Shown piece after piece: positions 5,706 through 58,316 of a DNA stretch of 64,000 nt. The DNA comes from Myxococcota bacterium (GTDB lineage: Bacteria; Myxococcota; B64-G9). The position numbers and the translations under genes were made by a program. Below the pieces are notes generated by a model. It was given only the letters and a program-made list of their open reading frames with translations, did no database searches and was not told the origin of the DNA. Position 1 is the first letter of the stretch. Every line of letters begins with the position of its first letter. Location: assembly GCA_022710975.1 (NCBI GenBank), contig JAKLGA010000005.1, positions 124,001 to 188,000 on the forward strand, written 5' to 3'.

Positions 5706-5741
5706 TCGGGTGGCGAGCCCTCCTCGAGTCGAGGTCATGCC

Positions 5742-6335: not shown

Positions 6336-6342
6336 GGCGGGC

Positions 6343-6798: not shown

Positions 6799-6862
6799 GT
6801 GCCAGTTCCTTTCTCTCCCGGAGGAGCCAGCGCCTCCGCGCACATCCGACGCTTCCAGTCGA

Positions 6863-6893
6863 AGTATATCGAAGACCCCCGGCAGCGGGGCAA
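6863..6893 (-). promoter_or_regulatory. Candidate promoter for the ferritin-like gene
   Basis: Read on the minus strand, TTGCCC (6893-6888) and TATACT (6868-6863) are separated by 19 bases, 65 bases before the ATG at 6798. The -10 matches 5 of 6 consensus bases and is unusually AT-rich for this genome. The spacing is longer than optimal. Confidence 0.3.
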
Positions 6894-6958
6894 GGTAAAA
6901 AGTGACCGGGCTGGAGCGACCTGAAGGGACGGGGGGAGAGCGGCGGGAGGGCCTGGGC

Positions 6959-7780
6959 TCAGGTCTCCTTGGGGAGCTCGCCCTTGAACGCGTACTGGTA
7001 CACGAAACCGATGAACACCATCCCGCCGATGATGTTGCCGAGGGTGACCGGGGCGAGGTTCCACGCGAGGAAGTCCACCCAGGAGACGTGCGCGCCCAGC
7101 ATGATGCCGGTCGGGATGAAGTACATGTTGGCCACGCTGTGCTCGAACCCGGTGGCCACGAACGCCATGATGGGGAACCAGATGCCGAAGAACTTGCCGA
7201 TCATGTTCTTCGAGGAGAACGCCAGCAGGATGGCCACGTTCACCAGGATGTTGCAGGCCACGCCCTTCAGCATGGCGGACCACCAGCCCATGCCGCCCTG
7301 GGCGATGTACGGCAGCACCTTGCCCTCGGCGATGGCGATGGCGTTCTGGCCGAACGCGGTGAGCTCGGCCCCGCCGCCCTTGACGCAGGGCCCCACGGCC
7401 ATGATGTAGGCCCAGAAGATCGAGCCGACGAAGTTGCCGATGTAGACCCAGAACCAGGCCATCAGCATGCGCTTGACCGCCAGCTTCTTGTTCAGGCAGG
7501 CGACCGGCATGAGCATGCAGTCGCCGGTGAACAGCTCCATGCCCGTGAGCACGATCGCGATCAGGCCGACCGGGAACACCGCACCGGCGATCAGGGACTT
7601 CATGCCCGGAGCGACGCCCGTGTCCAGCCCGGTCCCGCACACCGTGGCCAGGGCGCCGCCGACCGCGATGTACATGCCCGCCATGAACGACCGCATGAGC
7701 CAGTTCGGGACCGAGAGCCCGCCCTTGTAGGTGCCCGCTGTACAGCAGTTCTGGACGATCTCCACCGGTTTGTTCGCCAT
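6959..7780 (-). CDS. focA: FocA/FdhC-type formate channel
   Basis: This 273-residue integral membrane protein belongs to the formate-nitrite transporter family, pentameric channels for formate and related monocarboxylates. It has the expected six hydrophobic segments. The family landmarks are LTGMELFTGDCMLMP in the helix 2/3 loop and the C-terminal signature GFEHSVANMYFIP with the central His. The start at 7780 follows a purine-rich AAGGAAAGGAAAGGAAGG leader. Next to a formate dehydrogenase operon, formate is the likely substrate; nitrite or hydrosulfide cannot be excluded from sequence alone. It is followed on the same strand by the ferritin-like gene after a 160-base gap. Confidence 0.93.
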   Translation of the reverse strand: MANKPVEIVQNCCTAGTYKGGLSVPNWLMRSFMAGMYIAVGGALATVCGTGLDTGVAPGMKSLIAGAVFPVGLIAIVLTGMELFTGDCMLMPVACLNKKLAVKRMLMAWFWVYIGNFVGSIFWAYIMAVGPCVKGGGAELTAFGQNAIAIAEGKVLPYIAQGGMGWWSAMLKGVACNILVNVAILLAFSSKNMIGKFFGIWFPIMAFVATGFEHSVANMYFIPTGIMLGAHVSWVDFLAWNLAPVTLGNIIGGMVFIGFVYQYAFKGELPKET

Positions 7781-39899: not shown

Positions 39900-40787
39900 A
39901 TGTGGGATTACAACGACGTGGTGATGGATCACTTCCGCAACCCGCGCAACGTGGGCGTGCTGGAGGACCCGGACGGCGTCGGGCTGGTGGGCTCGATGGC
40001 CTGCGGTGACGCGCTCAAGCTGATGTTCAAGCTCGACGCCGCGGGCCGCATCCAGGCGGTGAAGTTCCAGACCTTCGGCTGCGCCAGCGCCATCGCCTCC
40101 TCCTCGGCCCTGACGGAGATCATCAAGGGCAAGACGCTCGAGGAGGCCGAGCGGGTGACCAACCGGGACATCGCCGAGTACCTGGGCGGGCTGCCGGAGC
40201 AGAAGATGCACTGCTCGGTCATGGGCCGCGACGCGCTGCTGGTGGCCATCGAGAACTACCGCAAGAAGCAGCGCGGCGAGGAGGTGGACTCCGAGATCAA
40301 GGAGGCCTCCGACATCACCTGCGTGTGCTTCGGGGTGACCCGCCAGGAGATCGTGCGCGCCATCCAGGAGAACAACCTGACCACCGTCGAGCAGGTGACC
40401 AACTACACCAAGGCAGGCGGAGGCTGCGGCGGCTGCCGCGACTCGATCCAGTTCCTGCTGGACGACCTGCACAAGGCCAGGGAGAAGGCCGCCGAGGCCA
40501 GGCAGAAGCCCACCAAGCCCCGACGGCTGACCACCATCCAGAAGGTGCAGCTCATCCAGGAGACCATCGAGCGCGAGATCCGGCCCCAGCTCCAGAAGGA
40601 TGGCGGCGACATCGAGCTGGTCGACCTCGACGGGCGCACCGTGTTCGTGTCCATGCGCGGCACGTGCTCGCAGTGCAAGGTGGCCGACTTCACCCTGAAG
40701 GCGGTGGTGCAGGCGAAGCTGCGCGAGTTCGTCGAGCCCGAGCTCATCGTGGTGCAGGCCCCGCTGGCCGAGGAGGAGCAGGCATGA
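39900..40787 (+). CDS. nifU: NifU, three-domain Fe-S scaffold
   Basis: This 295-residue scaffold has the full NifU plan. An IscU-like N-terminal domain carries Cys in SMACGD, FGCAS and KMHCSV. A [2Fe-2S] middle domain has CVCFG and GGGCGGC. A C-terminal Nfu domain has GTCSQC. It assembles Fe-S clusters with the NifS encoded next, whose start overlaps the stop (ATGA). No nitrogenase genes are nearby, so it is probably the general Fe-S system, as in many anaerobes. The ATG at 39900 follows GGGAG. Confidence 0.94.
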   Translation: MWDYNDVVMDHFRNPRNVGVLEDPDGVGLVGSMACGDALKLMFKLDAAGRIQAVKFQTFGCASAIASSSALTEIIKGKTLEEAERVTNRDIAEYLGGLPEQKMHCSVMGRDALLVAIENYRKKQRGEEVDSEIKEASDITCVCFGVTRQEIVRAIQENNLTTVEQVTNYTKAGGGCGGCRDSIQFLLDDLHKAREKAAEARQKPTKPRRLTTIQKVQLIQETIEREIRPQLQKDGGDIELVDLDGRTVFVSMRGTCSQCKVADFTLKAVVQAKLREFVEPELIVVQAPLAEEEQA

Positions 40788-41986
40788 GCCCGGCAGAGCT
40801 CCACTACCTGGACAACAACGCCACCACCCGGGTCGCGCCCGAGGTGGTGGAGGCCATGCTGCCCTTCCACACCGAGCTGTACGGCAACCCCTCCAGCATC
40901 CACCGCTTCGGCGGGCAGGTGCACCGGCACCTCGAGCGCGCCCGCGAGTCGGTGGCCCGCATGCTGGGCGCCCACCCGTCCGAGATCGTCTTCACCGCGG
41001 GCGGCTCCGAGGGAGACAACCTGGCCATCCGCGGCGCGCTGGAGGCCATGGACGGCCGGCGCCGGCACCTGGTCACCAGCCGGGTCGAGCACCCCGCGGT
41101 GCAGGTGGTCTTCCAGCACCTGGCCAAGCAGGGCTACCGGGTGACCGAGATCGGCGTGGACCGCGACGGCGCCCTGGACATGCCCCAGCTCGAGGCGGCC
41201 CTCACCCCGGAGACGGCCCTGGTCAGCCTGATGTGGGCCAACAATGAGACCGGGGTCCTCTTCCCGGTGGAGCGGGTGGCCGCGCTGTGCAAGGCCAAGG
41301 ACATCGTGTTCCACACCGACGCGGTCCAGGCGGCCGGCAAGCTGCCCATCGATCTCTCCAGGGCGCCCATCGATCTGCTGACCATCTCGGGCCACAAGCT
41401 GCACGCGCCCAAGGGCGTGGGCGCGCTGTACGTTCGCCGCGGCACGCGGCTCACCCCGCAGATCCTGGGCGGCCACCAGGAGCAGGGCCGGCGGGCGGGC
41501 ACCGAGAACAGCGCCTCCATCGTGGGGCTGGGCGTGGCCTGCGAGCTGGCGCTGGCCCACATGGACGAGGAGAACGTGCGGGTGCGGCGCCTGCGCGACC
41601 GGCTGGAGGCCGGCCTGCTGGCGAGCTGCAAGGGCGCGCTGGTCAACGGCAAGGTGCGCCTGCCCAACACGCTCAACGTCAGCTTCGAGTTCATCGAGGG
41701 CGAGAGCATCCTGATCATGCTGGACGATCTGGGGGTGGCCGCCTCGTCCGGCTCGGCCTGCGCCTCGGGCTCGCTCGAGCCCTCCCACGTCCTGCGCGCC
41801 ATGGGCGTGCCCTTCACCGCCGCCCACGGCTCGGTGCGCTTCTCGCTGTCGCGCTACAACACCGACGCGGACGTGGACCAGGTGCTCGCGCACATGCCCG
41901 GCATCGTCGAGCGCCTGCGGGCCATCTCGCCCTTCGTGGAGGAGCTCTCGCCGGCCTGCCAGGAGCGCAGCTACAGCAACTCCTGA
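40784..41986 (+). CDS. nifS: NifS/IscS cysteine desulfurase
   Basis: This 400-residue PLP enzyme releases sulfur from cysteine. The Lys that binds PLP is in ISGHKLHAPKG, and the active-site Cys is in SSGSACASGS. Other family blocks include LDNNATTRVAPEV and NNETGVLFPV. It belongs with NifU on the same transcript. It could also supply sulfur to FdhD-type maturation. Confidence 0.95.
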   Translation: MSPAELHYLDNNATTRVAPEVVEAMLPFHTELYGNPSSIHRFGGQVHRHLERARESVARMLGAHPSEIVFTAGGSEGDNLAIRGALEAMDGRRRHLVTSRVEHPAVQVVFQHLAKQGYRVTEIGVDRDGALDMPQLEAALTPETALVSLMWANNETGVLFPVERVAALCKAKDIVFHTDAVQAAGKLPIDLSRAPIDLLTISGHKLHAPKGVGALYVRRGTRLTPQILGGHQEQGRRAGTENSASIVGLGVACELALAHMDEENVRVRRLRDRLEAGLLASCKGALVNGKVRLPNTLNVSFEFIEGESILIMLDDLGVAASSGSACASGSLEPSHVLRAMGVPFTAAHGSVRFSLSRYNTDADVDQVLAHMPGIVERLRAISPFVEELSPACQERSYSNS

Positions 41987-42057
41987 GGGCGGCCGGCGCG
42001 CAGACAGGCCCGGTGAGCTTGGCCGGTGAGCGGAGTGCAGCAGGCAGGGAGTCGAGC

Positions 42058-42570
42058 ATGGCAGGGAAGCGCAGCGTGACGTTGAACGGAGATCGGCTGG
42101 AGCTGGCGGGCGCAGCGGTCAAGGTGGGCGACCGGGCCCCGGACTTCACCGCGCTGGACCAGGAGCTCCAGGAGTTCCGGCTGTCCTCGCTCAAGGGCAA
42201 GGTGCGGGTGCTGGTGTCGGTGCCCTCCCTGGACACCCCGGTGTGCGACCTCGAGACCCGGCGCTTCAACGAGGAGGCCTCCCGCCTGGGCGAGCGGGTG
42301 CGGGTGCTGGTGGTCAGCATGGATCTGCCCTTCGCCCAGAAGCGCTGGTGCGCGGCGGCCGGGGTGGAGCGGGTGCAGACGCTGTCCGACCACCGCGAGG
42401 CGGCCTTCGGCAAGGCCTACGGGCTGCTCATCCCGGCCCTGCGGCTGCTGGCCCGGGCGGTGATCGTGGTGGACGGCGCCGGCACGGTCAGCTACGTCCA
42501 GCTGGTGAAGGAGATCGGCAAGGAGCCCGACTACCAGGCCGTCCTGAGGGCCGTCCAGGAACTGCTGTGA
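42058..42570 (+). CDS. tpx: Thiol peroxidase
   Basis: This 170-residue peroxiredoxin of the Tpx type reduces hydrogen and lipid peroxides with thioredoxin. The peroxidatic Cys is in [14 protein letters not shown] and the resolving Cys in [10 protein letters not shown]. The N-terminal [10 protein letters not shown] and GDRAPDF are typical. The ATG at 42058 was chosen from the family length; an upstream in-frame stretch is not conserved. It starts a run of oxidative defence genes after nifS. Confidence 0.93.
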
Positions 42571-42587
42571 ACCCCGGAGGAGGATCC

Positions 42588-42971
42588 ATGACCGAGCGAA
42601 TGCAGATCTACAAGTGCGAGCGGTGCGGCAACATCGTCGAGGTGCTCCACGCCGGACCCGGCCAGCTGGTCTGCTGCGGGGTGCCCATGAAGCAGTCCGT
42701 GGAGAACACCGTGGACGCGGCCAAGGAGAAGCACGTGCCGGTGCTCACGCGCACCGCCGATGGCTTCAGGGTGGCGGTGGGCAGCGTGGCGCACCCCATG
42801 GAGGAGAAGCACTGGATCGAGTGGATCGAGCTCGTGGCCGACGGGGTCGTGCACCGCAAGTTCCTGAAGCCGGGCGACAAGCCCGAGGCCGTCTTCTGCG
42901 TGAAGGCCCAGGGCGTCAGCGCCCGGGAGTACTGCAACCTCCACGGGCTGTGGAAGGGAGAGGCGAAATGA
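42588..42971 (+). CDS. dfx: Desulfoferrodoxin (superoxide reductase)
   Basis: This 127-residue protein reduces superoxide to peroxide without making oxygen. The N-terminal desulforedoxin centre uses Cys10, 13, 29 and 30 (YKCERCG and LVCCGVPM). The C-terminal neelaredoxin site uses His in [19 protein letters not shown] and CNLHG with its Cys. This enzyme is a hallmark of anaerobes and microaerobes. The ATG at 42588 follows GGAGGAGG. Its stop overlaps the ferritin start. Confidence 0.95.
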
Positions 42972-43498
42972 ACAAGCTCATCGAGAAGGAATTCAATCAG
43001 CAGATCAAGCTGGAGATGGAGTCCGCGTACCTGTACATGGCCATGGGCGCCTGGGCCAAGGCCGAGAACCTGGACGGCCTGGCCACCTGGATGCAGGCCC
43101 AGGCCCTCGAGGAGATGGGGCACGCCATGCGCTTCCACAACCACCTGCTCGATCGCGGCGCGCAGGTGAGGCTGCAGAACCTGGGGATCGAGAAGATCAA
43201 GTGGAGGTCGGCGGTGGAGGCCTTCCAGGACACGGTGAAGCACGAGGAGTTCATCACCTCGCGCATCCACTTCCTGGTGGATCTCGCCAACAAGCACAAG
43301 GACAGCCCGGCCCGCAACTTCCTCGAGTGGTTCGTCAAGGAGCAGGTCGAGGAGGAGGCCACGGCCAACAAGATCCTGGCCGACCTCAGGCGGGTCGGCG
43401 ACTCCGGCCACGGACTGCTGATGATCGACCGAGAGCTCGGCGTCCGGCCCATCGCCCTGCCCGTGCTCGGCCCGACCGAGGCGGGGGCCGGGGCGTGA
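42968..43498 (+). CDS. ftnA: Ferritin
   Basis: This 176-residue protein matches bacterial ferritins: [20 protein letters not shown] with Glu ligands, [15 protein letters not shown] and [11 protein letters not shown]. It stores iron in a 24-mer. It is slightly longer than E. coli FtnA at the C-terminus. It overlaps desulfoferrodoxin by four bases, linking iron storage with superoxide detoxification. Confidence 0.93.
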
Positions 43499-43512
43499 AG
43501 GAGCGCGCCGCC

Positions 43513-44028
43513 ATGGACCAGGCCACGCGCAGGCGCCTCGCCGAGGGGCTGGCCCGCGCCATGCAGGCCGAGGTCGACGGGCACCACTTCTACCGCCTGG
43601 CCGCCCAGAGCACGCCCGACCCCAAGGGGCGCGAGGTGTTCGAGCAGCTCGCCCGCGAGGAGCACGACCACTTCGACTTCCTCAAGGCCCAGCAGCGCGC
43701 GATCCTGGAGACCGGCCAGCCCGACGCCCACGCGCACCTGGGCTCGCAGGCCGCGCTCGAGGGCCCGAGCCCCATCTTCTCCGAGGGCTTCCGGGCGCGC
43801 ATCAAGGAGGCCCACTTCGAGATGACCGCGCTCAGCGTGGCCATCCAGCTCGAGGAGAGCTCCTTCAAGTTCTACGACGCCCAGGCGGCCAAGGCGAAGG
43901 GCCCCGCGGTCAAGGCCTTCTTCAGGCAGCTCGCGGACTGGGAGCGCCGCCACCACGCGGCGCTGCAGCGCCAGCACGAGGCCTACAAGGAAGAGTACTG
44001 GCACGCCTCCGGCTTCTCGCCGTTCTGA
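43513..44028 (+). CDS. Rubrerythrin/ferritin-like diiron protein
   Basis: This 171-residue protein has a ferritin-like bundle: AMQAEVDGHHFYRLA, FEQLAREEHDHFDFLK, and SVAIQLEESSFKFYDAQ with RQLADWERRHHAALQRQ, giving paired Glu/His ligands. There is no rubredoxin domain. It may be a peroxide-consuming or iron-binding partner to the ferritin. I chose ATG 43513 after AAGGAG; GTG 43495, overlapping the ferritin stop, is an alternative. It converges on the kinase gene with a 7-base gap. Confidence 0.86.
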   Translation: MDQATRRRLAEGLARAMQAEVDGHHFYRLAAQSTPDPKGREVFEQLAREEHDHFDFLKAQQRAILETGQPDAHAHLGSQAALEGPSPIFSEGFRARIKEAHFEMTALSVAIQLEESSFKFYDAQAAKAKGPAVKAFFRQLADWERRHHAALQRQHEAYKEEYWHASGFSPF

Positions 44029-44035
44029 GGCCGTC

Positions 44036-47000
44036 TCAGGGTCTCGGGCCCACCCGGCCGCAGACCGGGTGGGCGGCAGGCCTGGGGCGGCGGGCCGGCC
44101 GGCCGTCGGCCCACACGACCGGCACCCCGGCCCACACCTCGGCCAGCAGCTCGCAGTAGCCCATGGCGAACAGGCCCAGATCCCAGTGCACCAGATCGCC
44201 GAGCTCGGTCGTGGCGGTCAGGCGCGCGCCCCAGGCCACGAGCTGCGAGACCGGGCCGTGCAGCTTGAGGTGGTCCAGCCGGGCGCCGCTGCGCAGGTCC
44301 CACAGCCCCACCGTGCCGTTGCCGTAACCAAGGAACAGGCTGTCCATGGGCCCGGGCAGCATGCGCACCACGGGGCTGGAGGGCACCTGGTCCAGGCTCA
44401 GGTTGCGGCCCGCCTGTCCGCCCTCGCGGGCCAGGATCTCCACCGTGCCGTCCGGGTAGCCGAGCGCGATCCAGGCCCCGTCCCCCGCGCCCGCCCGGCC
44501 GCCCGCGAGCAGCGCGCTGGCGCCTGCGCCGCCCGGCAGCTCGGCCCGCGGCGTCCCCTGGAGATCGAACACCCTCACCCCCTGCGGCGTGGCCACCAGC
44601 AGCTCGTCCTGTCCGAGCGAGATGGCGCTGGCCTTCTCGAGCAGCGCGACCGGCGCCGCCCCGGGCCGCAGGAGCCTGACCGCGCCACCGCCGAGCGTCA
44701 GGCAGCCGTCCGGGGTGGCCACCAGCCCGTCCAGCGCGTCCAGCTCGGCCTTGGCCTGCAGCTCGTCCCGGGCCCGGTCCCACAGGCTGACCTCGGCCTC
44801 GCCCGTCCGCAGGCACAGGCTGTCCCCGGCCGCGGAGGTCGCGCGGGCCTGGAGCAGCGCCCGCTGCCAGCGGCGCTCGGGCGCGAGCGGCGCGCCGCTG
44901 TCCTCGCCCCGGAGCAGGCCCTGCGGGGACGCCAGCCAGGGCGGGCCGTCCTGCGCGGGCACCACCAGTGGCGGGCGCCACAGGGGCGCGCGGCTGGCTG
45001 CGTCCCAGACCCGCAGGGTGCCGTCGTCCCCCACGCTGGCCACGGCCCGTCCATCCGGCGTGAAGGCCACCTCGTTCAGGGCGCCGCGGTTGCCGCGCAG
45101 CAGGCGCCGTTCGCCACCCGCCAGGGAGTGGATCTCGACCGTGCCCCCCTCGCTGCCGAAGGCGAAGCTCTGGCCGTCCGGGCTGAAGGCCAGGCTGATC
45201 AGCCGCTCGGCGGCCCGGGCCACCTCGCGTGAGCTGCCGTCCGCGAGGTTCCACAGGCGCACCACCCCGTTCCAGTCCCCGCTGATCAGCCGGCGTCCGT
45301 CCGGGGAGAAGGCCACCGTGTCCAGCTCCGCCGCGTGTCCCACGAGCACCTGGGCGCAGCGGCCCGAGGCGAGCTCCCACACGCGCACGGAGCGATCCCA
45401 GCTCGGGCTGGCGAGCCAGCGGCCGTCCGGGCTGAAGGCCGGGCGGAAGGCCAGATCGGTGTGTCCCACCAGGCGTTGCAGCCGCTTGCCCGTGTCCGCG
45501 CTCCACACCCACACCGAGCGATCGTAGGCCGCGCCCGCCACCCGTCGCCCGCGCGGATCGAGCGCCAGGGGGCTCATGAGATCCGCGGCGCCCTCCAGCG
45601 GCACCTCGCGCAGCGCGCCGCTCTGGAGGTCGAGCGCGTGCAGCACCCGATCCCAGCCGAGCGACCACACCTCCCGGCCGTCGGGGGTGAAGGCCAGCCC
45701 GCGCAGGGTCTCGGTGCCGTGGGTGAGCACCTGCTCCTCGCGCCCGGTGGCGGTCCGCCACACCCGCAGGCTGCCGTCGGCGGCCCCGCTGGCCAGGCGC
45801 TGGCCGTCCGGGCTGACCGCCAGGGCGAACACCTGGTCGGCGTGGCCGTGGGCCACCCGGGCCGGGGTCTGCAGCGGCAGGCGCCACAGGGCCACGCTGT
45901 GATCCTCCGAGCCGGTCACCAGCAGGCGCCCGTCCGGGGAGAAGTCCACCCCGCCCACGTAGTTCTGGTGGGCCTCGAGGTCGGCCAGGGGCTGGCCCTC
46001 CGGCAGCCCCCACAGGCGCACGTGGTGGTCGAAGCTCACCGAGGCGAGCAGCGTCCCGTCCGGGGAGAAGGCCAGATCTTGCACCCCGTCGGCGTGGCCC
46101 GCGAGCGCGAGCTGCGACCGGGGCGACCCGCCGGCGCGCAGCGCGGCCACGCCCCAGACCCGCACCGTCCCCTCCCCGCCTCCGGCCGCCAGCCAGCGCC
46201 CGTCCCGGCTGAACTCCAGGCAGGCGTGCCCGCGCTCCCCCTCCCGCACCGCGCCCAGCGGGGCCCCGGTCCTGGGATCCCACAGCCGGAGCCAGCCCGC
46301 GCGATCCGCGGAGGCCAGCAGCGCCCCGTCCGGGGAGAAGGCCACCGACCAGACGATCTCGGCGTGTCCATCGATCCGCATGAGCTCGGCCCCCGAGGAG
46401 GCCTGCCACAGCCGCACGCTGCGGTCCTGGCCGCAGGAGGCCAGCAGCGCCCCGTCCGGGCTCCAGGCCGCGTCGTGGATGGCGGAGGTGTGCCCGCTCA
46501 GCACCCGCAGGCTGCGGCCGGTGCGGGTGTCCCAGATGCGCAGGGTGCGATCGGCGCTGGTGGACACCAGCCGGCCCCCGTCGGGCGAGTAGCCCACGGT
46601 GGCCACCCAGTCGGTGTGCCCGCGCAGCACCCGCAGCTCGGCCGTGTCCACGTCCAGCAGGTAGATCGAGCGGTCGTGCCCGGCCGCGGCGACCTCGCGC
46701 CCGTCGGGCGAGAAGGCCACGTGGTAGACCAGCGCGCCCAGCGCCTTGCGCCACACCTCGGGCAGGGCGCGCGCCTTGCCCCACAGCACCCGGGAGCCGA
46801 CCGAGTCCGCCTCCTCCAGCGAGGTGCGCAGCTTGGCCCGCGCCTCCAGCAGCTCCCCGCGGGTGAGCGCCGCCCGGGCCCCCTCGCGGTGCGCCTCGGC
46901 CCAGCGGTGGCGCGCCTGCTGCCCGGCCTGCTCGGCCGCGCCGCGCAGGCGCTCGGCGGTCTCCCGCCCGCGCACCTCGTTCAGGTAGGCCCACACGCCC

Positions 47001-48538
47001 AGGCCCGCCAGCAGCAGCAGGAACACGCCCGCCACCGAGAGCGGCAACTTGTGCCGCAGCGCGAAGCGGCCCAGCAGGTCGCCCAGGCCGTACTCGTAGG
47101 CGCGCACCCGGCCGCCTGTCAGGAAGGCGCCCACCTCCTCGGCCAGCGCCTTGGCGCTCTGGTAGCGCTGGGCGCGATCCTTCGACAGGGCCTTCTGGCA
47201 CACCGAGGCCAGCTCGCGGGGCGCCCCGGGGGCGGCGCTGGCCACCCGCACCGGCTCGGCCCGCAGCACCTTGCCCAGCACCTCGAACACCGTGGCGCCC
47301 TCGAAGGGCGGCCGGCCGGTGAGGATCTCGTACAGCACCGCCCCCAGGCTCCACACGTCCGAGCGCTCGTTCACCTCCTCCAGCCGGCCGTCGGCCTGCT
47401 CCGGGCTCATGTAGTTGGGGGTGCCGATCGCGGTGCCGTCCACCGTCTGCCCCGTCTGCACATCGCGGATGCGCGCGGCCTCGCGCGCCAGCTCCTCGCC
47501 GCGGATGTCGGCCGCGCCCAGCACCTTGGCCAGCCCCCAGTCCAGCACCACCGTCTCGCCGAACTCGCCCAGCATGACGTTCTCGGGCTTGAGATCCCGG
47601 TGGACCACCCCGCGGCTGTGGGCGTAGGCCACGGCCTGGCACAGGTCCACGAAGTGCTTCAACAGCTCGAGCCGCCCGGGCAGATCGCGGGCCGCGCGGA
47701 TGGCGTCCCGCAGCGTGCGGCCGCGCACCATCTTCATGGTGTAGTACAGCGTGCCGTCGGCCCGCCGGCCGAGCTCGTAGACCGGCACGATGTTGGGGTG
47801 CTCGAGCTGGCCGGTGACCCGCGCCTCGCGCAGGAAGCGGGCCACGCTGGAGGCGAGCTGGGCCGAGGGCCGGAGGCCGGCCGGGCCCTCCGGCGTGAGC
47901 AGCTCCTTCAGCGCCACCTCGCGCCCCAGGTGCTCGTCGAAGGCCAGCAGCACCCGCCCGATGCCGCCCCGGCCCACCTCGGCCTGGCTACGGTTGCGCG
48001 TGGACGCGGCGGTGGCGCGGTCGCGCAGCACGTAGCGGCCCGCGGCCTCGGGGGTCACCACCGCGGCGTCCGCGCCGGGCGCTGGCCCCGGCGCGACCGG
48101 GGTGAGCGTGGGCCCGGCGGGGGCGACGGGCCCGGCGGGCGCGCGGGCGGGCGGCGCCGAGTCGAAGCCCGACAGGGCTCCCGGCCCGCCGACCACCCAG
48201 CCGCCGCCGGGCGTGGGGTCTTCGCGGGACAGCACCACCGATCCGCCCAGGCTGCGCTCGACCGCCTCCGGCCCGCCGAAGGTCTCGAGGGTCAGGCCCG
48301 CGTCCCCGCCGTGCGCCTCGACCGCCTCCGCCACCATGGCCGACAGCATGCGGTGCATGGGCTCGGGCACCAGCCGGCCCGCCAGCATGCACTCGGCCAG
48401 CCCCCTGGAGCGATCCGCGGCCCAGGCCCCGGCCACCGCCAGGATCTCCTGGGCGGACACCAGTCCGAGCTGGACGGCGAACACCCCGAAGAGCAGATCG
48501 CGCTCGGCGGCGCGCGCGGGCGTGGCGGAGGCATCCAT
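44036..48538 (-). CDS. Ser/Thr protein kinase with transmembrane helix and WD40 propellers
   Basis: This 1500-residue protein starts with about 180 residues of unknown N-terminal region. A Hanks-type kinase domain (about 185-475) follows: VGRGGIGRVLL, Lys211 in VALKEL, Asp315 in HRDLKPEN, DWG at 333-335 instead of DFG, and GTPNYMSPEQ. A membrane helix (about 500-519) and a coiled stretch lead to WD40 repeats from about 600 to the end. At least fourteen clear SPDG/W repeats are visible, then degenerate ones, so two or more propellers. The kinase is cytoplasmic; the WD40 part is probably periplasmic. It is the last gene of a five-gene set. Ligand unknown. Confidence 0.93.
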   Translation of the reverse strand: MDASATPARAAERDLLFGVFAVQLGLVSAQEILAVAGAWAADRSRGLAECMLAGRLVPEPMHRMLSAMVAEAVEAHGGDAGLTLETFGGPEAVERSLGGSVVLSREDPTPGGGWVVGGPGALSGFDSAPPARAPAGPVAPAGPTLTPVAPGPAPGADAAVVTPEAAGRYVLRDRATAASTRNRSQAEVGRGGIGRVLLAFDEHLGREVALKELLTPEGPAGLRPSAQLASSVARFLREARVTGQLEHPNIVPVYELGRRADGTLYYTMKMVRGRTLRDAIRAARDLPGRLELLKHFVDLCQAVAYAHSRGVVHRDLKPENVMLGEFGETVVLDWGLAKVLGAADIRGEELAREAARIRDVQTGQTVDGTAIGTPNYMSPEQADGRLEEVNERSDVWSLGAVLYEILTGRPPFEGATVFEVLGKVLRAEPVRVASAAPGAPRELASVCQKALSKDRAQRYQSAKALAEEVGAFLTGGRVRAYEYGLGDLLGRFALRHKLPLSVAGVFLLLLAGLGVWAYLNEVRGRETAERLRGAAEQAGQQARHRWAEAHREGARAALTRGELLEARAKLRTSLEEADSVGSRVLWGKARALPEVWRKALGALVYHVAFSPDGREVAAAGHDRSIYLLDVDTAELRVLRGHTDWVATVGYSPDGGRLVSTSADRTLRIWDTRTGRSLRVLSGHTSAIHDAAWSPDGALLASCGQDRSVRLWQASSGAELMRIDGHAEIVWSVAFSPDGALLASADRAGWLRLWDPRTGAPLGAVREGERGHACLEFSRDGRWLAAGGGEGTVRVWGVAALRAGGSPRSQLALAGHADGVQDLAFSPDGTLLASVSFDHHVRLWGLPEGQPLADLEAHQNYVGGVDFSPDGRLLVTGSEDHSVALWRLPLQTPARVAHGHADQVFALAVSPDGQRLASGAADGSLRVWRTATGREEQVLTHGTETLRGLAFTPDGREVWSLGWDRVLHALDLQSGALREVPLEGAADLMSPLALDPRGRRVAGAAYDRSVWVWSADTGKRLQRLVGHTDLAFRPAFSPDGRWLASPSWDRSVRVWELASGRCAQVLVGHAAELDTVAFSPDGRRLISGDWNGVVRLWNLADGSSREVARAAERLISLAFSPDGQSFAFGSEGGTVEIHSLAGGERRLLRGNRGALNEVAFTPDGRAVASVGDDGTLRVWDAASRAPLWRPPLVVPAQDGPPWLASPQGLLRGEDSGAPLAPERRWQRALLQARATSAAGDSLCLRTGEAEVSLWDRARDELQAKAELDALDGLVATPDGCLTLGGGAVRLLRPGAAPVALLEKASAISLGQDELLVATPQGVRVFDLQGTPRAELPGGAGASALLAGGRAGAGDGAWIALGYPDGTVEILAREGGQAGRNLSLDQVPSSPVVRMLPGPMDSLFLGYGNGTVGLWDLRSGARLDHLKLHGPVSQLVAWGARLTATTELGDLVHWDLGLFAMGYCELLAEVWAGVPVVWADGRPARRPRPAAHPVCGRVGPRP

Positions 48539-48576
48539 GGGTTCGAGGGCAGTTGAGCACGTCGCCCGTCGGGCGA

Positions 48577-49494
48577 TCAAGCTTTCGGCGGGCGCCGCTC
48601 GAAGGGCACCCCGCCCGCCCGTAACCAGGCGCACAGCTGGCGATAGTTCGCCGCGGTGGAATCCAGCTCGAACCGGGCGCCGGCGCGGGTCCGGATCTCG
48701 AGCGTGCGATCCGCGCCGTTCCACTGCGCTCGCTCCTCCGCGACGGCCAGCTCCTCGCGCGCCCAGGTGCGCCGCCCGAAGGGTCCCCGGCGGGTGAGCC
48801 GCGCGCCGTCGAGCTCGAGGCGCGTCCACGCCCTGAGGAGCGCGGCCCCGCCGGCCCAGGCGAGCCAGGCCCCGAGCCCGCACCCGAGCCCGGCCAGCAG
48901 CCGCATCGGCCCGGCCTGGGTCGCCAGCCCCCAGGCACCGAGCCCCGATCCGGCCGCGCCCATGCCCGCGAGCATCGCCAGACCGCCCCGATCCTGGTCG
49001 CGCTCCTCCACCCGGAAGCGCGCGGGCGGGGCGGGCAGGGCCGCGTCGGCGGGGGGCGCCGGAGGGAGGAGACCGCGCGCCTCCAGCGCGGCCTGCAGCG
49101 CGTGGAAGCCGCGCTCGTAGGACTCGATCACCACCCGGGGGCCTCCCGGCGGCTGCAGGGTGAGCCGCCACACCCCGCCCAGGAAGTTCCGCACCTCCAG
49201 GCGCAGCTCGGCGCGCGTGCCCGGCCCGAGCCGCGCCCGGCGCCGCCCGAGAAGCGAGCGCAGCTCGAGCTCCTCCCCGCGGAGCACTCGCCGCCAAGGC
49301 AGGGCCGCGAGTCCCAGGGCCAGGGCCAGCCCCACGCCCAGGAGCAGCCCGGGGACGAGCCAGCCGTGCCCGGGCGCGGAGGCCGCCTGGTGGCCGGCCA
49401 CCGCCAGGCAGGCGAACGCCACGCCCAGGCCAGGCAGCCGCATCCACACCGGCCAGCGCACCACCACCGGATCCTGGCTCGGCCCGTGGTCCAT
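48577..49494 (-). CDS. Membrane protein of unknown function, possible PH-like domains
   Basis: This 305-residue protein has two hydrophobic pairs (about 20-65 and 170-215) and cytoplasmic segments resembling PH-like domains (ELELRSLLGRRRARL, and TRLELDGARLTRRGPFGRR with a matching spacing). The two halves look like an internal duplication. It lacks known catalytic motifs. It sits 38 bases upstream of the kinase-WD40 gene on the same strand and is probably co-transcribed. Confidence 0.7.
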   Translation of the reverse strand: MDHGPSQDPVVVRWPVWMRLPGLGVAFACLAVAGHQAASAPGHGWLVPGLLLGVGLALALGLAALPWRRVLRGEELELRSLLGRRRARLGPGTRAELRLEVRNFLGGVWRLTLQPPGGPRVVIESYERGFHALQAALEARGLLPPAPPADAALPAPPARFRVEERDQDRGGLAMLAGMGAAGSGLGAWGLATQAGPMRLLAGLGCGLGAWLAWAGGAALLRAWTRLELDGARLTRRGPFGRRTWAREELAVAEERAQWNGADRTLEIRTRAGARFELDSTAANYRQLCAWLRAGGVPFERRPPKA

Positions 49495-49503
49495 GCCCTC
49501 AGG

Positions 49504-49983
49504 TCAGTCCGGAATCGCCAGCGCTCGCCAGGCTCGGCGCACCCGCACCGCGGCCACGATCATGTAGATCTCGGCCACCAGCATGGCGATCCAGATGGGG
49601 GACAGGCTGGCCACCGGCGGGAGAAAGAGGATGCCGATCACCAGCAGGATCCCCAGGCCGATGAGGTACAGGAAGGGCAAGAAGCTCAGGGCCGCGCGCA
49701 CCGTCATCAGGTGTGGCGCGCGCGGGTCGCGGCGCCGCACGGCGCGGAGCGCGAGGGCGGTGAGCACCACCCAGGCGACCGGCAGCAGCACCCACAGGCC
49801 CAGGACAAGCCCCAGCATGGCCCCGTCCTCGGAGTAGGCGCAGGCCCCCATGCCCAGCAGGGCGAACAGCCCCACGATGGACATGCTGAGCCAGCCGGCC
49901 CAGGTGGTGGTCCTGCAGGCGCGCAGGTAGAGCTCCTCGGCCTCCGGCGCGCCCGGGCTCGGCGCGGTGCGGTTCTCGGGCAT
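49504..49983 (-). CDS. Small multi-pass membrane protein, unknown function
   Basis: This 159-residue protein has four predicted helices (WLSMSIVGLFALLGMGACAY, LGLVLGLWVLLPVAWVVLTA, LPFLYLIGLGILLVIGILFL and IWIAMLVAEIYMIVAAV). I see no named family. ATG 49983 was preferred to GTG 49992 because GGGGAGG lies at the right distance. It belongs to the run 52655 to 44036 on the minus strand. Confidence 0.68.
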   Translation of the reverse strand: MPENRTAPSPGAPEAEELYLRACRTTTWAGWLSMSIVGLFALLGMGACAYSEDGAMLGLVLGLWVLLPVAWVVLTALALRAVRRRDPRAPHLMTVRAALSFLPFLYLIGLGILLVIGILFLPPVASLSPIWIAMLVAEIYMIVAAVRVRRAWRALAIPD

Positions 49984-50013
49984 GGCGGCCACCCTCCCCT
50001 CGGCGGGAATGCG

Positions 50014-51435
50014 CTACCAGGCGTCGGGGGTCAGCACCTCGACCTGGCGGCTCTTCGAGTCATACCGCAGCACGCGCTCGCGGCCGTCGAGATCCAGGTC
50101 GCAGCGGGCGTAGGCGGCAAAACCGTCCCCGGTCTGCTCCACCTCGTAGCTGAAGTAGACGGGGTCGAGGGGCTTGAAGCCGAGCTCCTCGAAGCACTTG
50201 TCCCCGGGCCAGGGCTGGCTGTCCTTGCCCGGCGTCTGGAGCGGCACCCGGGCGCAGCCCTTGTAGGCCCCGCGCTCGGTGAAGTAGAGCTCCTCGGCCC
50301 GGGCCAGCGTCCGGAGGTTCTCGCGTCCCTCGCTCTCCTTGGCCTTGCGGGTGTAGTCGATGAAGGCCGGGATGGCCACGGCCGCCAGCACCCCGGTGAT
50401 CATCAGCCCGCCGCGGGTGAGCTTGCTGGGGACCACCAGCCGCACCAGCGCGCCGCTCACCTGGACGTCGGGCTTGCCCTCGGGCCGGGGCAGCAGCGCC
50501 TCGATGGTCTTGACCAGCGCCGGGCGGTTCTTGAGCATGCCCACCACCTGCGGCGGCAGCTCGGGCATGGAGCCCAGATCCAGCGCCAGGGCCGCGTAGG
50601 CGTAGGCGCGCCACACGTAGGTCCCGGCCAGGAAGCTCTCGCCGATGCCCTGCAGCAGCCGGCGGGCCTTCTGGGCCGCGGGCGCGCCCTCGCAGCCGAG
50701 CACGAGCTGCACGCCGTCTTTGCTCACGTCCGCCTGCAGCCAGCGCAGGCCGCCGACCAGGGTGGCCACGGGCACGCTGGGATCCCGCAGCAGCTCCTCG
50801 CGCGCCACGGCCGGCACGGCCACGGCCAGGCGGAACAGGTGCTCCGCGCCGGGCTTGGCGGTCAGCTCGGGCAGCTTGCGGGCCAGCTCCGGGGCGATCT
50901 CCTTGGCCGCCAGGGCCGCGGACAGGCCCTGCGCGTCGTTGGCCGCCAGGATGCGCCGGCCCGCCTCCAAGCCGAAGGCCGCACCGGGCTTGGTGAAGAT
51001 CTCGCGCCCGTCCCGGGTCTCGGCCTGCAGCTCGGGATCGACCTTCTTCGGCAGGTCGCCGGGGATCTTCCCGAGCAGCACGCCCACGCCGCGGGGCTCA
51101 CCGCCCGCAGCCAGGCTGACGCCGATCGCGGCCCAGCCCAGATCCTGGAGCAGGTCCACGCCGTACTGGCTCTTGAGCGTGCCCAGGGCCGACTCGAGCA
51201 GGGTGCGCTGCATGCCGAGCAGGTTCTTCACCTCCGGGTTCTCGGCCACCGCGGGCAGGGCGTCGATCTCGGCCCACATGTCCTTGTAGTACCGGCCCCA
51301 GGCGCCGAGATCGGCCGCGATCACCAGGTCGACGTCTGCCGGCAGCGGCGAGAGCAGCTCGGCCAGATCGGCGGCCGGCGCCGGGGCCGGCAAGAGCAGC
51401 GCGAAGCCGACCAGTCCGCACAGGAGCCGGTTCAT
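50014..51435 (-). CDS. Secreted protein with an internal type IV pilin-like helix, unknown function
   Basis: This 473-residue protein has a Sec signal peptide (LLCGLVGFALLLPAPAPAA). The first 340 residues are paralogous to the lipoprotein encoded just upstream (51432-52655): LPADVDLVIAADLG and DLGWAAIGVSLA. The last 130 residues resemble a minor pilin: GGLMITGVLAAVAIPAFIDY and RENLRTLARAEELYFTER, then a Cys-containing globular tail. A prepilin cleavage motif GFTLIE is not seen. The pilin helix is thus internal, in a secreted protein. Its start overlaps the paralog's stop by four bases. Function unknown. Confidence 0.78.
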   Translation of the reverse strand: MNRLLCGLVGFALLLPAPAPAADLAELLSPLPADVDLVIAADLGAWGRYYKDMWAEIDALPAVAENPEVKNLLGMQRTLLESALGTLKSQYGVDLLQDLGWAAIGVSLAAGGEPRGVGVLLGKIPGDLPKKVDPELQAETRDGREIFTKPGAAFGLEAGRRILAANDAQGLSAALAAKEIAPELARKLPELTAKPGAEHLFRLAVAVPAVAREELLRDPSVPVATLVGGLRWLQADVSKDGVQLVLGCEGAPAAQKARRLLQGIGESFLAGTYVWRAYAYAALALDLGSMPELPPQVVGMLKNRPALVKTIEALLPRPEGKPDVQVSGALVRLVVPSKLTRGGLMITGVLAAVAIPAFIDYTRKAKESEGRENLRTLARAEELYFTERGAYKGCARVPLQTPGKDSQPWPGDKCFEELGFKPLDPVYFSYEVEQTGDGFAAYARCDLDLDGRERVLRYDSKSRQVEVLTPDAW

Positions 51436-52655
51436 GGCGCACCTCCGCCCGAAGGCGGGGCGGGTGGCGCAGCAGGCACGGGAGGCGCGTCGGGCGGCAC
51501 GGCCGCCTTGAGCGACTGGTCGAGATCATCCATGGCCATGCCGATCATCAGCGCCGGCACGATGAACGCGCTGAGCATGCCCGCGGCCACCGCGCTGAGG
51601 GCCACCCAGGTCTTGCGCTCCGAGCGCAGGCTCACCAGGAGCCCTTCCCGGCGCACGTCCGGCAGCGCCGCCGGTGGGGGCAGGAGCACCTCCAGGCTGG
51701 TGGCCAGCGCGGCGTCGTCCTTGAGCAGCAGCCGCACGGGCGCCGGCACGTCGGGCAGCCGGTCGAGGTCCAGCGCGAGCGCGAGCTGGGCGATCGCGCG
51801 GGCGGCGTGCTGGCTACCCATGAGGCCGTCGGCCAGCGCGATCATCAGGTAGTGCCAGCTCTCGGCCGTGCGCTCGTCCGCGGACAGCACGCCCAGGCGC
51901 ACCTCGCGGCCGAGCTCCAGCTCGCAGCGCGCCAGGCCGGTCAGCAGCCCCAGGCCGACCCCCGCGGGCGGCGCCTCCCTGGACAGCTCGGCCTTCAGGG
52001 CGTCCGAGAGGAGGAAGGAGGCGCGCCCCAGGAAGCCCGGCTCGACCTTGCCGGCCAGCGCGGGGTGGCGCGCGAGCAGCGCCTCCAGGCTCTTGCCGTC
52101 GGGTTTCCGCGCCTGGGCCGCCAGCTCCTGGTGGGCCAGCACCACCACGCCGTCCAGCAGCGCGACCTCCAGATCCTTCTCCGGGCGGGCGATCTGCAGG
52201 CCGTCCCGCTCCTCGAGCGGGGCCTCGGGGAAGGCGCGCTTCAGGAAGTCGGGCGGGAAGGCGCCCTGCACCACCACCACCGCGCGCGGCTCGGCGCCCG
52301 GCACCAGGCGCAGGCCCAGCGCGGCCAGGCCGAGGTCCTTGAACGGATCCAGCCCCAGCTTGTCCCGCATGGGCGCGAGCACCTGGTCGAGGGCCGTGCG
52401 CTGGCCCTGGACGAGGTCCTTCAGCTCCTGGCTGGCCTGCAGGAGCGGCAGCAACTGCAGCTCTTCGGCCCAGGCCCGGCCGGTGCGCACCGCCTCGGCC
52501 ACGTCCATGCTCACCACCAGATCGGCGTCGGCCGGCAGCCGCGCGAGCAGCGCGCCGAACGGGCCGGCGTCCTTGCCTCCGCAGCCCGCCACGGCCCACA
52601 GGCCGAGCACCAGCCCCACGAGAGCGGCGCGCCGCCCCAGACGAGAGTACATCAT
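51432..52655 (-). CDS. Lipoprotein paralogous to the pilin-helix protein
   Basis: This 407-residue protein has a lipoprotein signal (GLVLGLWAVAGC). Residues 35-340 align in order with the 50014 protein: LPADADLVVSMDVAEA, DLGLAALGLRL, and LALALDLDRLPDVP. Its C-terminal hydrophobic helix (WVALSAVAAGMLSAFIVPAL) takes the place of the pilin-like helix and ends in a Pro-rich tail. It is first in the minus-strand five-gene run. Two ATGs (52655 and 52652) are equally placed. No family name is recognised. Confidence 0.78.
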   Translation of the reverse strand: MMYSRLGRRAALVGLVLGLWAVAGCGGKDAGPFGALLARLPADADLVVSMDVAEAVRTGRAWAEELQLLPLLQASQELKDLVQGQRTALDQVLAPMRDKLGLDPFKDLGLAALGLRLVPGAEPRAVVVVQGAFPPDFLKRAFPEAPLEERDGLQIARPEKDLEVALLDGVVVLAHQELAAQARKPDGKSLEALLARHPALAGKVEPGFLGRASFLLSDALKAELSREAPPAGVGLGLLTGLARCELELGREVRLGVLSADERTAESWHYLMIALADGLMGSQHAARAIAQLALALDLDRLPDVPAPVRLLLKDDAALATSLEVLLPPPAALPDVRREGLLVSLRSERKTWVALSAVAAGMLSAFIVPALMIGMAMDDLDQSLKAAVPPDAPPVPAAPPAPPSGGGAP

Positions 52656-52916: not shown

Positions 52917-54605
52917 ATGACCGAGACCGTCGAGTACCCCTGGTACAAATACTGGCCCCAGAGCGTTCCCAAGAGCCTGACGTACTCCGACAAGCCGCTG
53001 GGCTCCCTGCTCGACGACGCGGCCGAGAAGTACCCCGACAACACGGCCATCATCTTCCTCGACACGCCCGTGACCTACCGGCAGCTCAAGAAGCACGTGG
53101 ACTGCTTCGCCACGGCCCTGTACGACCTGGGCGTGCGCAAGGGCGACGTGGTCGGCCTGCGGCTGCCCAACTGCATCCACTACGTGATCGCCTACTACGC
53201 GGCCATGAAGGTGGGCGCCGTGGTGACGGCCAACAACCCGCTCTACAAGGCGGCCGAGATCGAGCACCAGTTCTGCGACTCCGGGGCCAAGATCCTGGTG
53301 GTCATGGACATCGTGTTCGAGGAGGCCCGGCGGGCGCTGCCCAAGACCCCGGTGCAGAAGGTCATCGGCTGCAACATCGGCGACTTCCTGCCGACCATGA
53401 AGCGCGTGCTGGGAAAACTGCTCAAGAAGGTCCCCGGCGCCCCCATGCCGCCCACCGCGCTGCAGTTCATGGATCTGCTGCGCACGCCGGCCCGGCCCGA
53501 GGTGTTCGAGAGCAAGTGGGACACCAAGGAGGACCTGGCCGTCCTGCAGTACACCGGCGGCACCACCGGCAAGCCCAAGGGCGCCATGCTGACGCACCTC
53601 AACCTGGTGTCCAACGTCCAGATGATCAAGGCCTGGGACTACAAGAGCGTGCCCGGCCAGGACGTGATCGGCGGCATCCTGCCGCTGTTCCACATCTACG
53701 CCATGACGACCGTCATGAACCTGGCCGTCATGAACGGCTGCACCATGCTGCTGTTCCCCAAGCCGCCCGAGGACTGGGGCCAGCTCCTGGAGGCCATCCA
53801 GAAGTACAAGGTCACGCTGTTCCCCGGGGTGGCGGCGCTGTACAACGCCATCAACAACTACCCGCGGGTCAAGGAGTACAACCTGCGCACCATCCGCGCC
53901 TGCATCTCCGGCGCCGGCCCCCTGCCCCAGGAGATCCAGAACCGCTTCGAGGAGCTCAGCGGCGCGCGGCTCATCGAGGGCTACGGCCTGACCGAGTCCT
54001 CGCCGGTGGTCACCGCCAACCCGGTCTACGACCGCCGCAAGCAGGGCACCATCGGCATGCCCATGCCGGACACGATCGCCAAGATCATGGACAAGGAGAC
54101 CGGCACCAAGCAGCTCGGGCCCAACGAGGTGGGCGAGCTGGTCGCCAAGGGTCCGCAGATCATGAAGGGCTACTACCGCACCCAGGAGAACAAGGACGTC
54201 CTGCGTGACGGCTGGCTGTACACCGGCGACCTGGGCATGATCGACGACGAGGGCTACTTCATCATCGTCGACCGCAAGAAGGACCTCATCAAGCGCTCGG
54301 GCTACTCGGTCTTCCCCAAGGAGGTCGAGGAGTACCTGTACCGCAACGAGCACGTGCTCGAGTGCGCGGTGATCGGCGTCCCGGACGAGAAGGCCGGCGA
54401 GGAGATCAAGGCCTTCATCGCGCTGAAGCCCGCCTCCCGCGGCAAGGTGACCGAGAAGGACATCGTCGAGTGGGCCAAGGCCAACATGGCCAACTACAAG
54501 TACCCCCGCCTGGTCGAGTTCCGCGACGAGATCCCCAAGGGCACCGCGGGCAAGATCCTGCGCCGCGCGCTGAAGGAAGAGGAGCAGGCCAAGAACAAGA
54601 AGTAG
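52917..54605 (+). CDS. Long-chain fatty acid-CoA ligase
   Basis: This 562-residue AMP-forming acyl-CoA synthetase activates fatty acids. Key motifs: YTGGTTGKPKGAMLTH (A3 P-loop), EGYGLTESSP (A5), GWLYTGDLG (A7), DRKKDLIKRSGYSVFP (A8) and the C-terminal Lys in PKGTAGKILRR. Length and motifs fit FadD-type enzymes, not acetyl-CoA synthetase. It stands alone in its transcript unit. Chain length of substrate cannot be told. Confidence 0.92.
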   Translation: MTETVEYPWYKYWPQSVPKSLTYSDKPLGSLLDDAAEKYPDNTAIIFLDTPVTYRQLKKHVDCFATALYDLGVRKGDVVGLRLPNCIHYVIAYYAAMKVGAVVTANNPLYKAAEIEHQFCDSGAKILVVMDIVFEEARRALPKTPVQKVIGCNIGDFLPTMKRVLGKLLKKVPGAPMPPTALQFMDLLRTPARPEVFESKWDTKEDLAVLQYTGGTTGKPKGAMLTHLNLVSNVQMIKAWDYKSVPGQDVIGGILPLFHIYAMTTVMNLAVMNGCTMLLFPKPPEDWGQLLEAIQKYKVTLFPGVAALYNAINNYPRVKEYNLRTIRACISGAGPLPQEIQNRFEELSGARLIEGYGLTESSPVVTANPVYDRRKQGTIGMPMPDTIAKIMDKETGTKQLGPNEVGELVAKGPQIMKGYYRTQENKDVLRDGWLYTGDLGMIDDEGYFIIVDRKKDLIKRSGYSVFPKEVEEYLYRNEHVLECAVIGVPDEKAGEEIKAFIALKPASRGKVTEKDIVEWAKANMANYKYPRLVEFRDEIPKGTAGKILRRALKEEEQAKNKK

Positions 54606-54774: not shown

Positions 54775-55214
54775 ATGGGCATCCCCGAGGAGTCCCTCAA
54801 GCGACTGATCGGCCTGCGCGTGGAGCTGGACCGCATCTTCCGCGAGCTGCTCCAGCCCTGGAAGGCCGGCGAGGGCGGCGCCGTCCAGGCCGTGCCGGTG
54901 GTGGTCGACGTGTTCGAGACCGACGGCGAGATCATCGTCGAGGCCGACCTGCCCGGGGTGGCCAGGGAGCACATCGAGCTGACGGTGCTGCGCGACATCC
55001 TGATCCTCGAGGGGACCAAGCCGGCCCCCGCGGCCAGGCCGGACGTCCGCCACCAGTGCGTGGAGCGGGTGGCCGGGCGGTTCCGCCGGGTGGTGGAGCT
55101 GCCCGGGGCGGCCGACACCCGCAACATCCACGCCCGGCTCGAGCGGGGCGTGCTGCGCGTCCGCCTCCCCAAGATCGAGGAGCGCCGCGGCAGCCGGCGG
55201 AAGGTGTCCATCGA

Positions 55215-55218
<4 letters not shown>
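54775..55218 (+). CDS. Hsp20 small heat-shock protein
   Basis: This 147-residue chaperone has an alpha-crystallin domain (about 45-140) with VVDVFETDGEIIVEADLPGV and the conserved GVLRVRLPK tail. Small heat-shock proteins hold unfolded clients as oligomers. It overlaps the lon start by four bases, so holdase and protease are made together. Confidence 0.9.
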
Positions 55219-57602
<2,384 letters not shown>

Positions 57603-57608
57603 ACCGCC

Positions 57609-58316
57609 ATGGTGCAGATCAACCTCGAGGCCCGGGAGATCACCCTCAAGATCGTCTACTACGGCCCTGCGCTCTCCGGGAAGACCACCAACCTGCAGGC
57701 GGTCCACCAGCTCATGGACGCGAACGCCCGCGGGCGGCTGATGATCCTGGACACCTCCGACGATCGCACCCTGTTCTTCGACCTGATGCCGGTCTACTTC
57801 CGCTCCCGGTCGGGCTTCACCGTGAAGGTGAAGCTGTTCACCGTGCCCGGCCAGGTGATGCACAACTCCACCCGGCGCATCGTGCTGCAGGGCGCCGACG
57901 GGGTGGCGTTCGTGGCCGACAGCCAGAAGGAGATGGCCCAGGCCAACAACGACTCCTGGCGGGACATGCAGCAGAACCTCAGGCTGAACGGGCTCGACCC
58001 CACGACGCTGCCCATCGTCATCCAGTTCAACAAGCGCGACATGCCGGACGTGCGCCCGGACGAGGAGCTGGACGAGGTGGCCCGCCGGGGCCGGGAGAAG
58101 GTCTTCAAGGCGGTGGCCATCCGCGGCGACGGGGTGCTGGAGACCCTGGAGGGCATCCTGCGCATGACCTGGCGCTCCCTGGACGAGCGCTACCAGCTCG
58201 CGGAGAAGCTGGGCATCGAGGAGGCGGAGTTCGTGGACAACCTGCTGCGGCGGGGGGGCACGCCGCCCGCCCCGGGCGCCGGCCCGGGCCAGCCGGGGGG
58301 CGGAGGCGCGCCATGA
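57609..58316 (+). CDS. MglA-like small GTPase
   Basis: This 235-residue protein has a Ras-like fold of the MglA group: P-loop [27 protein letters not shown] in switch II and guanine motif NKRD. MglA sets polarity for gliding and pili motility in Myxococcus, acting at the cell pole. This protein has a Gly/Pro-rich C-terminal tail of about 25 residues. It overlaps the next histidine kinase gene by four bases, suggesting a signalling partner. No MglB-type GAP is present nearby. It starts 6 bases after lon. Confidence 0.9.

Follow-up and report, generated by a model that had tools for sequence, protein, structure and literature searches.

A recurrent C-terminal type IV pilin module in putative exported envelope proteins of Myxococcota

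The window analysed in this work is a stretch of 64,000 nucleotides (nt) from a Myxococcota bacterium (assembly GCA_022710975.1, contig JAKLGA010000005.1, positions 124,001 to 188,000); its source genome, of 7.1 Mb, is labelled G000 in our survey (the contig is C25). The window contains two overlapping genes, P0001 and P0002, that encode a tandem pair of apparently exported paralogs. The C-terminus of P0002 is a type IV pilin module with none of the signals by which pilins are processed, and fusions of this kind recur in other genomes of the phylum. The two genes and their parts are listed below with window coordinates and protein lengths in amino acids (aa).

51432..52655, minus strand: P0001, lipoprotein paralog, 407 aa, with lipobox VAGC (Cys25), a predicted TP0453-like N-domain (by homology to P0002) and a degenerate hydrophobic C-terminal helix
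51522..51599, minus strand: hydrophobic helix of P0001, about residues 353-378, in the place of the pilin helix
50014..51435, minus strand: P0002, apparently exported protein with an N-domain and a C-terminal pilin module, 473 aa
51370..51435, minus strand: putative Sec-type signal peptide of P0002, residues 1-22, ending APA/AD (read by eye)
50428..51369, minus strand: N-domain of P0002, residues 23-336, predicted TP0453-like fold
50275..50427, minus strand: pilin alpha-1 helix of P0002, residues 337-387, corresponding to mature pilin from about residue 11 on and lacking leader, cleavage site, and Glu5
50017..50274, minus strand: pilin head of P0002, residues 388-473, four strands predicted, with Cys394 and Cys414 as in the G001 and f15 members described below

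The pilin module of P0002 and its paralog P0001

Residues 345-395 of P0002 match residues 11-61 of the Myxococcus PilA (PDB 8tj2) in phmmer with an expectation value (E) of 3.7e-6, and the NCBIfam PilA model NF041775 also matches P0002 (E 2.8e-7). With P0002 as the query, the head also aligns with true prepilins from other genomes; residues 344-464, for example, align with one of the genome G051 that bears GFTLIEL (E 1.4e-11). As judged from these alignments, the C-terminal part of P0002 is a genuine type IV pilin module and not a chance hydrophobic stretch. The preliminary description of this locus had proposed an internal type IV pilin-type helix that lacks a cleavage motif. Both points were confirmed, and the pilin homology stands against the helix being an unrelated transmembrane segment.

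Ahead of the helix, neither P0002 nor the aligned members have a prepilin cleavage motif or a class III signal peptide. The true pilins of the same genome do show an N-terminal class III signal peptide with a prepilin peptidase site. The place of Glu5, a residue described as usual but not universal in type IV pilins (PMC10191384), is taken by Leu339 in a hand count. Pilin residues 1-10, the leader, the cleavage site, and Glu5 are thus all missing. With no class III signal peptide, cleavage site, or Glu5, and with a C-terminal position in an apparently exported protein where a pilin would come first, the module should be unable to serve as an ordinary pilus subunit.

The AlphaFold model of P0002 exhibits the N-domain, one helix (residues 337-387), and a four-stranded head, with a mean predicted local distance difference test score (pLDDT) of 76. 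The head was modelled with pLDDT mostly of 47-79, and its structural search gave no clear pilin match. A PHROGs search returned one weak match, which lies in the pilin helix. DUF3352, considered as a candidate family, has no Pfam match in P0001 or P0002 at E up to 1, nor does any of ten relatives match it up to E 0.5.

P0001 and P0002 share 32% identity over 337 aa (E 1e-29), and by this similarity they are paralogs, as had been proposed. The ordinary hydrophobic helix that had been noticed at the same place in the lipoprotein was also found (residues 353-371 of P0001); it has no pilin match in Pfam or NCBIfam. Signal peptides and lipoboxes were assigned by eye, without a predictor. P0002 looks Sec-exported and has no lipobox, whereas P0001 and several relatives have one.

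Distribution of the fusion

The survey covered 195 genomes of the phylum, where labels of the type f1 denote families. The N-domain profile of P0002 matched 6 of these genomes, all with its own family label, f1. Fused genes were identified in 17 genomes (6 of f1, 3 of f15, and 8 others) under six family labels in all; G006:C357 (partial match, E 3.7e-4) and G146 (fragment) were left out of this count. The heads in the fusions are PilA-type, GspG-type, or absent.

Nine close f1 genes were compared, and seven of them have a recognisable pilin helix. A PilA-type head follows the helix in two of the seven (P0002 and G001) and a GspG-type head in one, a G004 copy that matches Pfam T2SSG above the cut-off (E 1.4e-18). 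The other four (the G004 upstream gene, G005, the G006 downstream gene, and G008) consist of the helix and a short tail only. The remaining two close genes, P0001 and the G006 upstream gene, carry a different hydrophobic helix. NCBIfam pilin models match five of the nine proteins below E 0.01 and two weakly (G008, E 0.12; G006, E 0.07), and two have no match. A tenth, more distant f1 gene (from G005) ends in an ordinary hydrophobic stretch. The f1 members have a lipobox or a signal peptide by eye.

The f15 members occur in three genomes and carry a pilin head with two cysteines behind a degenerate helix; their N-domain is related to that of f1 (probability 96.6%, E 6e-10). A second subfamily, searched with the N-domain of the G079 protein, is present in 12 of the 195 genomes: eight with a PilA module, three without (G190, G191, and G192), and one fragment. 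Its fusions fall under the family labels f8, f13, f27, and f31. All eight fused members match Pilin_PilA at E up to 0.1 as well as NF041775, and a profile built from all of them aligns with 8tj2 beginning at PilA residue 8 (E 3.8e-36). The lipobox cysteine is present in all seven members of this subfamily that have an intact N-terminus.

Among named genomes, the second-subfamily query matched one, a metagenome-assembled genome of Archangium, and no relative of P0002 was identified. Plasmids and viral contigs gave no relative. PilA matches occur in 186 of the 195 genomes, a figure that does not set fused copies apart. Another use of the pilin head outside pilins was observed in f8 (L025, L027, L039, and L041): in these small proteins, same-type heads stand behind a plain hydrophobic helix without a prepilin motif, and head matches occur in many f8 genomes.

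Conservation and origin of the helix

Among 16-residue windows in f1, that of the helix ranks first in conservation, with a mean pairwise identity of 0.65 against 0.42 for the next window in seven genes, two degenerate rows being omitted; with all nine genes the values are 0.49 and 0.44. The second subfamily exhibits the same pattern, at 0.69 against 0.52 (seven of eight rows, the truncated row omitted). This window carries the pilin consensus GILAAxAIPxFxxY.

Three accounts of origin were examined. Gene conversion from the pilins of the same genome was rejected for six fused genes (G001, for which no own-genome pilins were available, was left out), where identity to own-genome pilins is not above that to foreign pilins. 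Recent copying therefore does not explain the conservation of the helix. An ancient duplication with orthologous upstream and downstream genes found no support in a tree of nine N-domains, in which none of six inner branches is supported. A single N-domain common to all fusions gained no support from sequence comparison, the hhalign probability between f1 and the second subfamily being 0.3%. The strand and helix order is alike in the N-domain models of both. Since sequence comparison failed and this order is alike, the data are compatible with one fusion or with several.

The module could also be a decaying relic, in which one old fusion is losing its pilin part without function. The head is absent in four of the seven f1 helix genes, and the helix is unrecognisable in two of nine genes and weak in f15, as decay would have it. 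However, the helix is the most conserved part in two subfamilies, contrary to what is expected of a relic, and helix, head, and cysteines persist in the second subfamily across four family labels. We regard decay as improbable.

The N-domain and a proposed role for the pair

The N-domain belongs to no family in Pfam or NCBIfam. The P0002 model, in which this domain has pLDDT mostly of 73-93, was compared with TP0453 of Treponema pallidum, giving VIA Z 12.0 with a root-mean-square deviation of 4.9 over 209 aligned residues (model residues 25-342); the next family has Z 4.3. Foldseek also matches the model to TP0453 (E 2.4e-5). By sequence, TP0453 was not among the phmmer matches of P0002, taken up to E 10. 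The N-domain is accordingly predicted from the model to have a TP0453-like alpha/beta fold. TP0453 is described as lying at the inner face of the outer membrane and inserting into bilayers, and has been proposed as a lipid or glycolipid carrier (PMC5421087).

We tentatively propose, at a rough probability of 0.42, that these are envelope proteins of lipid handling or membrane contact in which a pilin helix has been recycled as a C-terminal membrane anchor. P0001 and P0002 would be paired, exported proteins of the envelope with the TP0453-like domain as their core, most likely on the periplasmic side of a membrane, where they may handle or sense lipid. P0001 would be held by its N-terminal lipid and perhaps also by its C-terminal hydrophobic helix. 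P0002 would have lost the lipid or never had it, and a type IV pilin module would have been captured at its end by gene fusion. The conserved helix (pilin residues about 11-35) would most likely be reused as the anchor.

The head appears dispensable because it is absent in four of the seven f1 helix genes and GspG-type in one. Paralogs, P0001 among them, have ordinary hydrophobic helices at the place of the pilin helix; for this reason, and because the head is often lost, anchoring is judged the likelier role for the f1 pair, short of an even chance. The export signals seen in f1 and the second subfamily, together with the conservation of the helix, also speak for the proposal.

Hydrophobicity, cysteines, and topology

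Hydrophobicity of the helices was expressed as our own sum, a simplification of a hydrophobicity scale, in which lower values are more hydrophobic. In favour of anchoring, the P0002 helix has 0.93, which falls among the segments of the polytopic neighbours (-2.2 to 3.0) and under all windows of the P0002 N-domain (3.9 or above). The f1 members that have only the helix range from 0.1 to 1.4 and end in short charged tails, and the head-bearing second subfamily ranges from 0.9 to 2.3.

Several observations weigh against the anchor proposal. Fused helices (0.1 to 2.3) are less hydrophobic than those of three own-genome pilins (-1.3 to -1.9), and the helix is conserved beyond what anchoring alone would demand. 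In f15, the head is better conserved than the degenerate helix. A helix that spans the membrane after an exported domain would place the head in the cytoplasm, and conserved cysteines conflict with this: in the second subfamily, the N-domain cysteine pair is present in 8 of 8 members and six head cysteines in 6-7 of the 8, whose heads have a mean identity of 0.36, and a head cysteine pair is common to P0002 and G001 and likewise to the three f15 proteins. No detectable sequence kinship links the N-domains of f1 and the second subfamily, and the second-subfamily model (pLDDT 64) reaches Z 5.1-5.5 against TP0453, not above unrelated rows. No lipid-binding residue was identified, and one neighbouring acyl-CoA ligase gene is the only sign of a lipid pathway.

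A cysteine at about the same place was seen by eye in two of four own-genome pilins. From the cysteines, both sides of the helix look extracytoplasmic. This leaves three readings: a helix that is peripheral in head-bearing members, cysteines that form no disulfides, or an unusual topology. A fully extracytoplasmic protein, whose shortened helix does not cross the membrane but packs against the N-domain, mediates dimerisation, or rests on the membrane surface, with the head in an oxidising periplasm, would agree with cysteines that flank the helix on both sides and with the low hydrophobicity of the second-subfamily helices. The model of P0002, with its single straight helix after the last N-domain strand, agrees with it as well. 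The f1 helix-only members, more hydrophobic and with anchor-like charged tails, argue against it, and we give this arrangement a minority share of the probability, well below that of anchoring.

Possible docking to pilus or secretion machinery

The truncated module may instead be a docking adaptor that binds pilins, pseudopilins, or the platform and so brings the exported domain, unpolymerised, to a type IV pilus or a type II secretion system (T2SS). That the pilin consensus falls in the best conserved window is in its favour, as is the finding that recent copying does not account for this conservation, own pilins being no closer. The heads, where present, are PilA- or GspG-type, and the genome of the window has its own pilus cluster on contig C1 (PilB, PilT, PilC, a sensor, a regulator, four pilins, and PilD, with names assigned by eye). 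However, no pilus or T2SS gene stands beside a fused gene in the neighbourhoods examined. The elements commonly used for docking, residues 1-10 and Glu5, are missing, and the helix-only members have no head. Docking is rated unlikely, although clearly ahead of decay. We hold it similarly doubtful that these Sec-exported proteins and lipoproteins form a class of inverted modular pilins, whose C-terminal pilin module would approach from outside the inner membrane, be strongly selected to contact pilins or the platform, and so reach the filament machinery or the membrane with neither a class III signal nor PilD.

Gene neighbourhood

The locus consists of five minus-strand open reading frames, P0001 to P0004 and a kinase/WD40 gene. 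The remaining three and the genes on the other side of the pair are listed below.

49504..49992 (GTG start) or ..49983 (ATG start), minus strand: P0003, small polytopic membrane protein, a neighbour and not a conserved part of the pair
48577..49494, minus strand: P0004, polytopic membrane protein, with a sub-threshold bPH_6 match (Pfam, E 0.16)
44036..48538, minus strand: neighbouring serine/threonine kinase with C-terminal WD40 propellers (Pkinase E 6.8e-37, WD40 E 3e-107)
52918..54605, plus strand: divergent acyl-CoA ligase, the sole neighbour common to all three tandem genomes
54775-58316, after the acyl-CoA ligase: Hsp20, Lon, and MglA-like GTPase

The compact same-strand order reported in the preliminary description is correct. 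The start of P0002 overlaps the stop of P0001 (ATGA), with a GGAGG stretch seen by eye inside P0001 just upstream of the overlap. The gaps are 30 nt between P0002 and P0003 (21 nt with the GTG start), 9 nt between P0003 and P0004, and 38 nt between P0004 and the kinase gene. The same description had read these genes as one five-gene envelope/kinase unit, which this compactness would favour and which was not borne out. P0003 and P0004 each match their source genome and none of the others (1 of 195), and the pair occurs without them in G004 and G006. The kinase-linked five-gene system falls because its genes are not conserved together, and we consider it very improbable. The interpretation held in part: the tandem pair itself is conserved, but other genes follow it in G004 and G006. 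Neither domain matches nor neighbourhood comparison gave evidence that links the kinase/WD40 gene to the pair.

The tandem pair is present in G000, G004, and G006, three of the six f1 genomes with the family, and each time it is divergent from an acyl-CoA ligase gene. The Hsp20-Lon-MglA block follows the ligase in G000 and G004. In G006 the contig breaks off within the ligase; the same block lies on another contig, at whose end stands what appears to be the remaining part of the gene, so that the arrangement is inferred across two contigs. G003 and G007 have the block and not the pair.

The following observations were also made in other neighbourhoods and elsewhere in the window. In two f8 genera (L125 and L126; G145 and G148), a second-subfamily fused lipoprotein gene lies directly upstream of genes that resemble alpha-2-macroglobulin by eye; the other second-subfamily genes stand in differing contexts. 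The fused gene of G008 (L047; 7583-8752) adjoins a gene at 526-7386 for a 2286-residue repeat protein that looks like tetratricopeptide repeats by eye. Window positions 39900-44028 hold NifU-like, NifS-like, thiol peroxidase, desulfoferrodoxin-like, and two ferritin/rubrerythrin-like genes (named by eye), by their names an oxidative-stress and iron-sulfur cluster. A formate-dehydrogenase-like frame at 2963-5650 has a TGA at 4016-4018 after DHCART with the in-frame continuation HAPTVAGLATSFG; this TGA looks like a selenocysteine codon.

Significance and comparison with known systems

Pilins are defined and sought by their N-terminal signal. If the module works in these proteins, pilin helices act outside the prepilin pathway, and the fusions offer a natural test of which helix parts are needed for membrane insertion and which for docking. 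Should the module serve as an anchor and nothing more, the fusions are a case of domain recycling, and a pilin match in an annotation need not mean a pilus subunit.

TP0453 (PDB 3k8g-3k8j) shares the predicted fold of the N-domain and is a lipoprotein, as P0001 appears to be. As far as the PDB chains show, TP0453 has no pilin module; P0002 differs from it by having one and by having no lipobox. Myxococcus xanthus PilA (8tj2, NF041775) shares the helix with the fusions, and the second subfamily shares both helix and head. The fusions differ from PilA in that leader, cleavage site, and Glu5 are absent and the module is C-terminal in a lipoprotein or an apparently Sec-exported protein. The G004 copy resembles GspG pseudopilins by its T2SSG match; however, it scores 71 bits, below the NCBIfam equivalog cut-off of 88.85, and its N-terminus is replaced by the exported domain.

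The literature search, which was not exhaustive, gave no report of a C-terminal pilin in Myxococcus lipoproteins and no account of the inverted architecture. The nearest known systems are the modular pilins, PilB of Streptococcus sanguinis and others, described as having an N-terminal pilin module with a class III signal and an extra domain after it (PMC8179133). The survey of modular pilins in that source is given as defined by an N-terminal IPR012902, and such signal-defined surveys would miss the inverted fusion because they require the N-terminal signal. P0002 shares with modular pilins, as described there, the joining of a pilin module to an unrelated folded domain. The order in P0002 is reversed: the N-terminal domain appears to be exported separately, the pilin comes last, and its signal is gone. 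On its homologies, the recurrent fusion is thus an inverted one, near the known modular pilins but reversed and without their defining signal.

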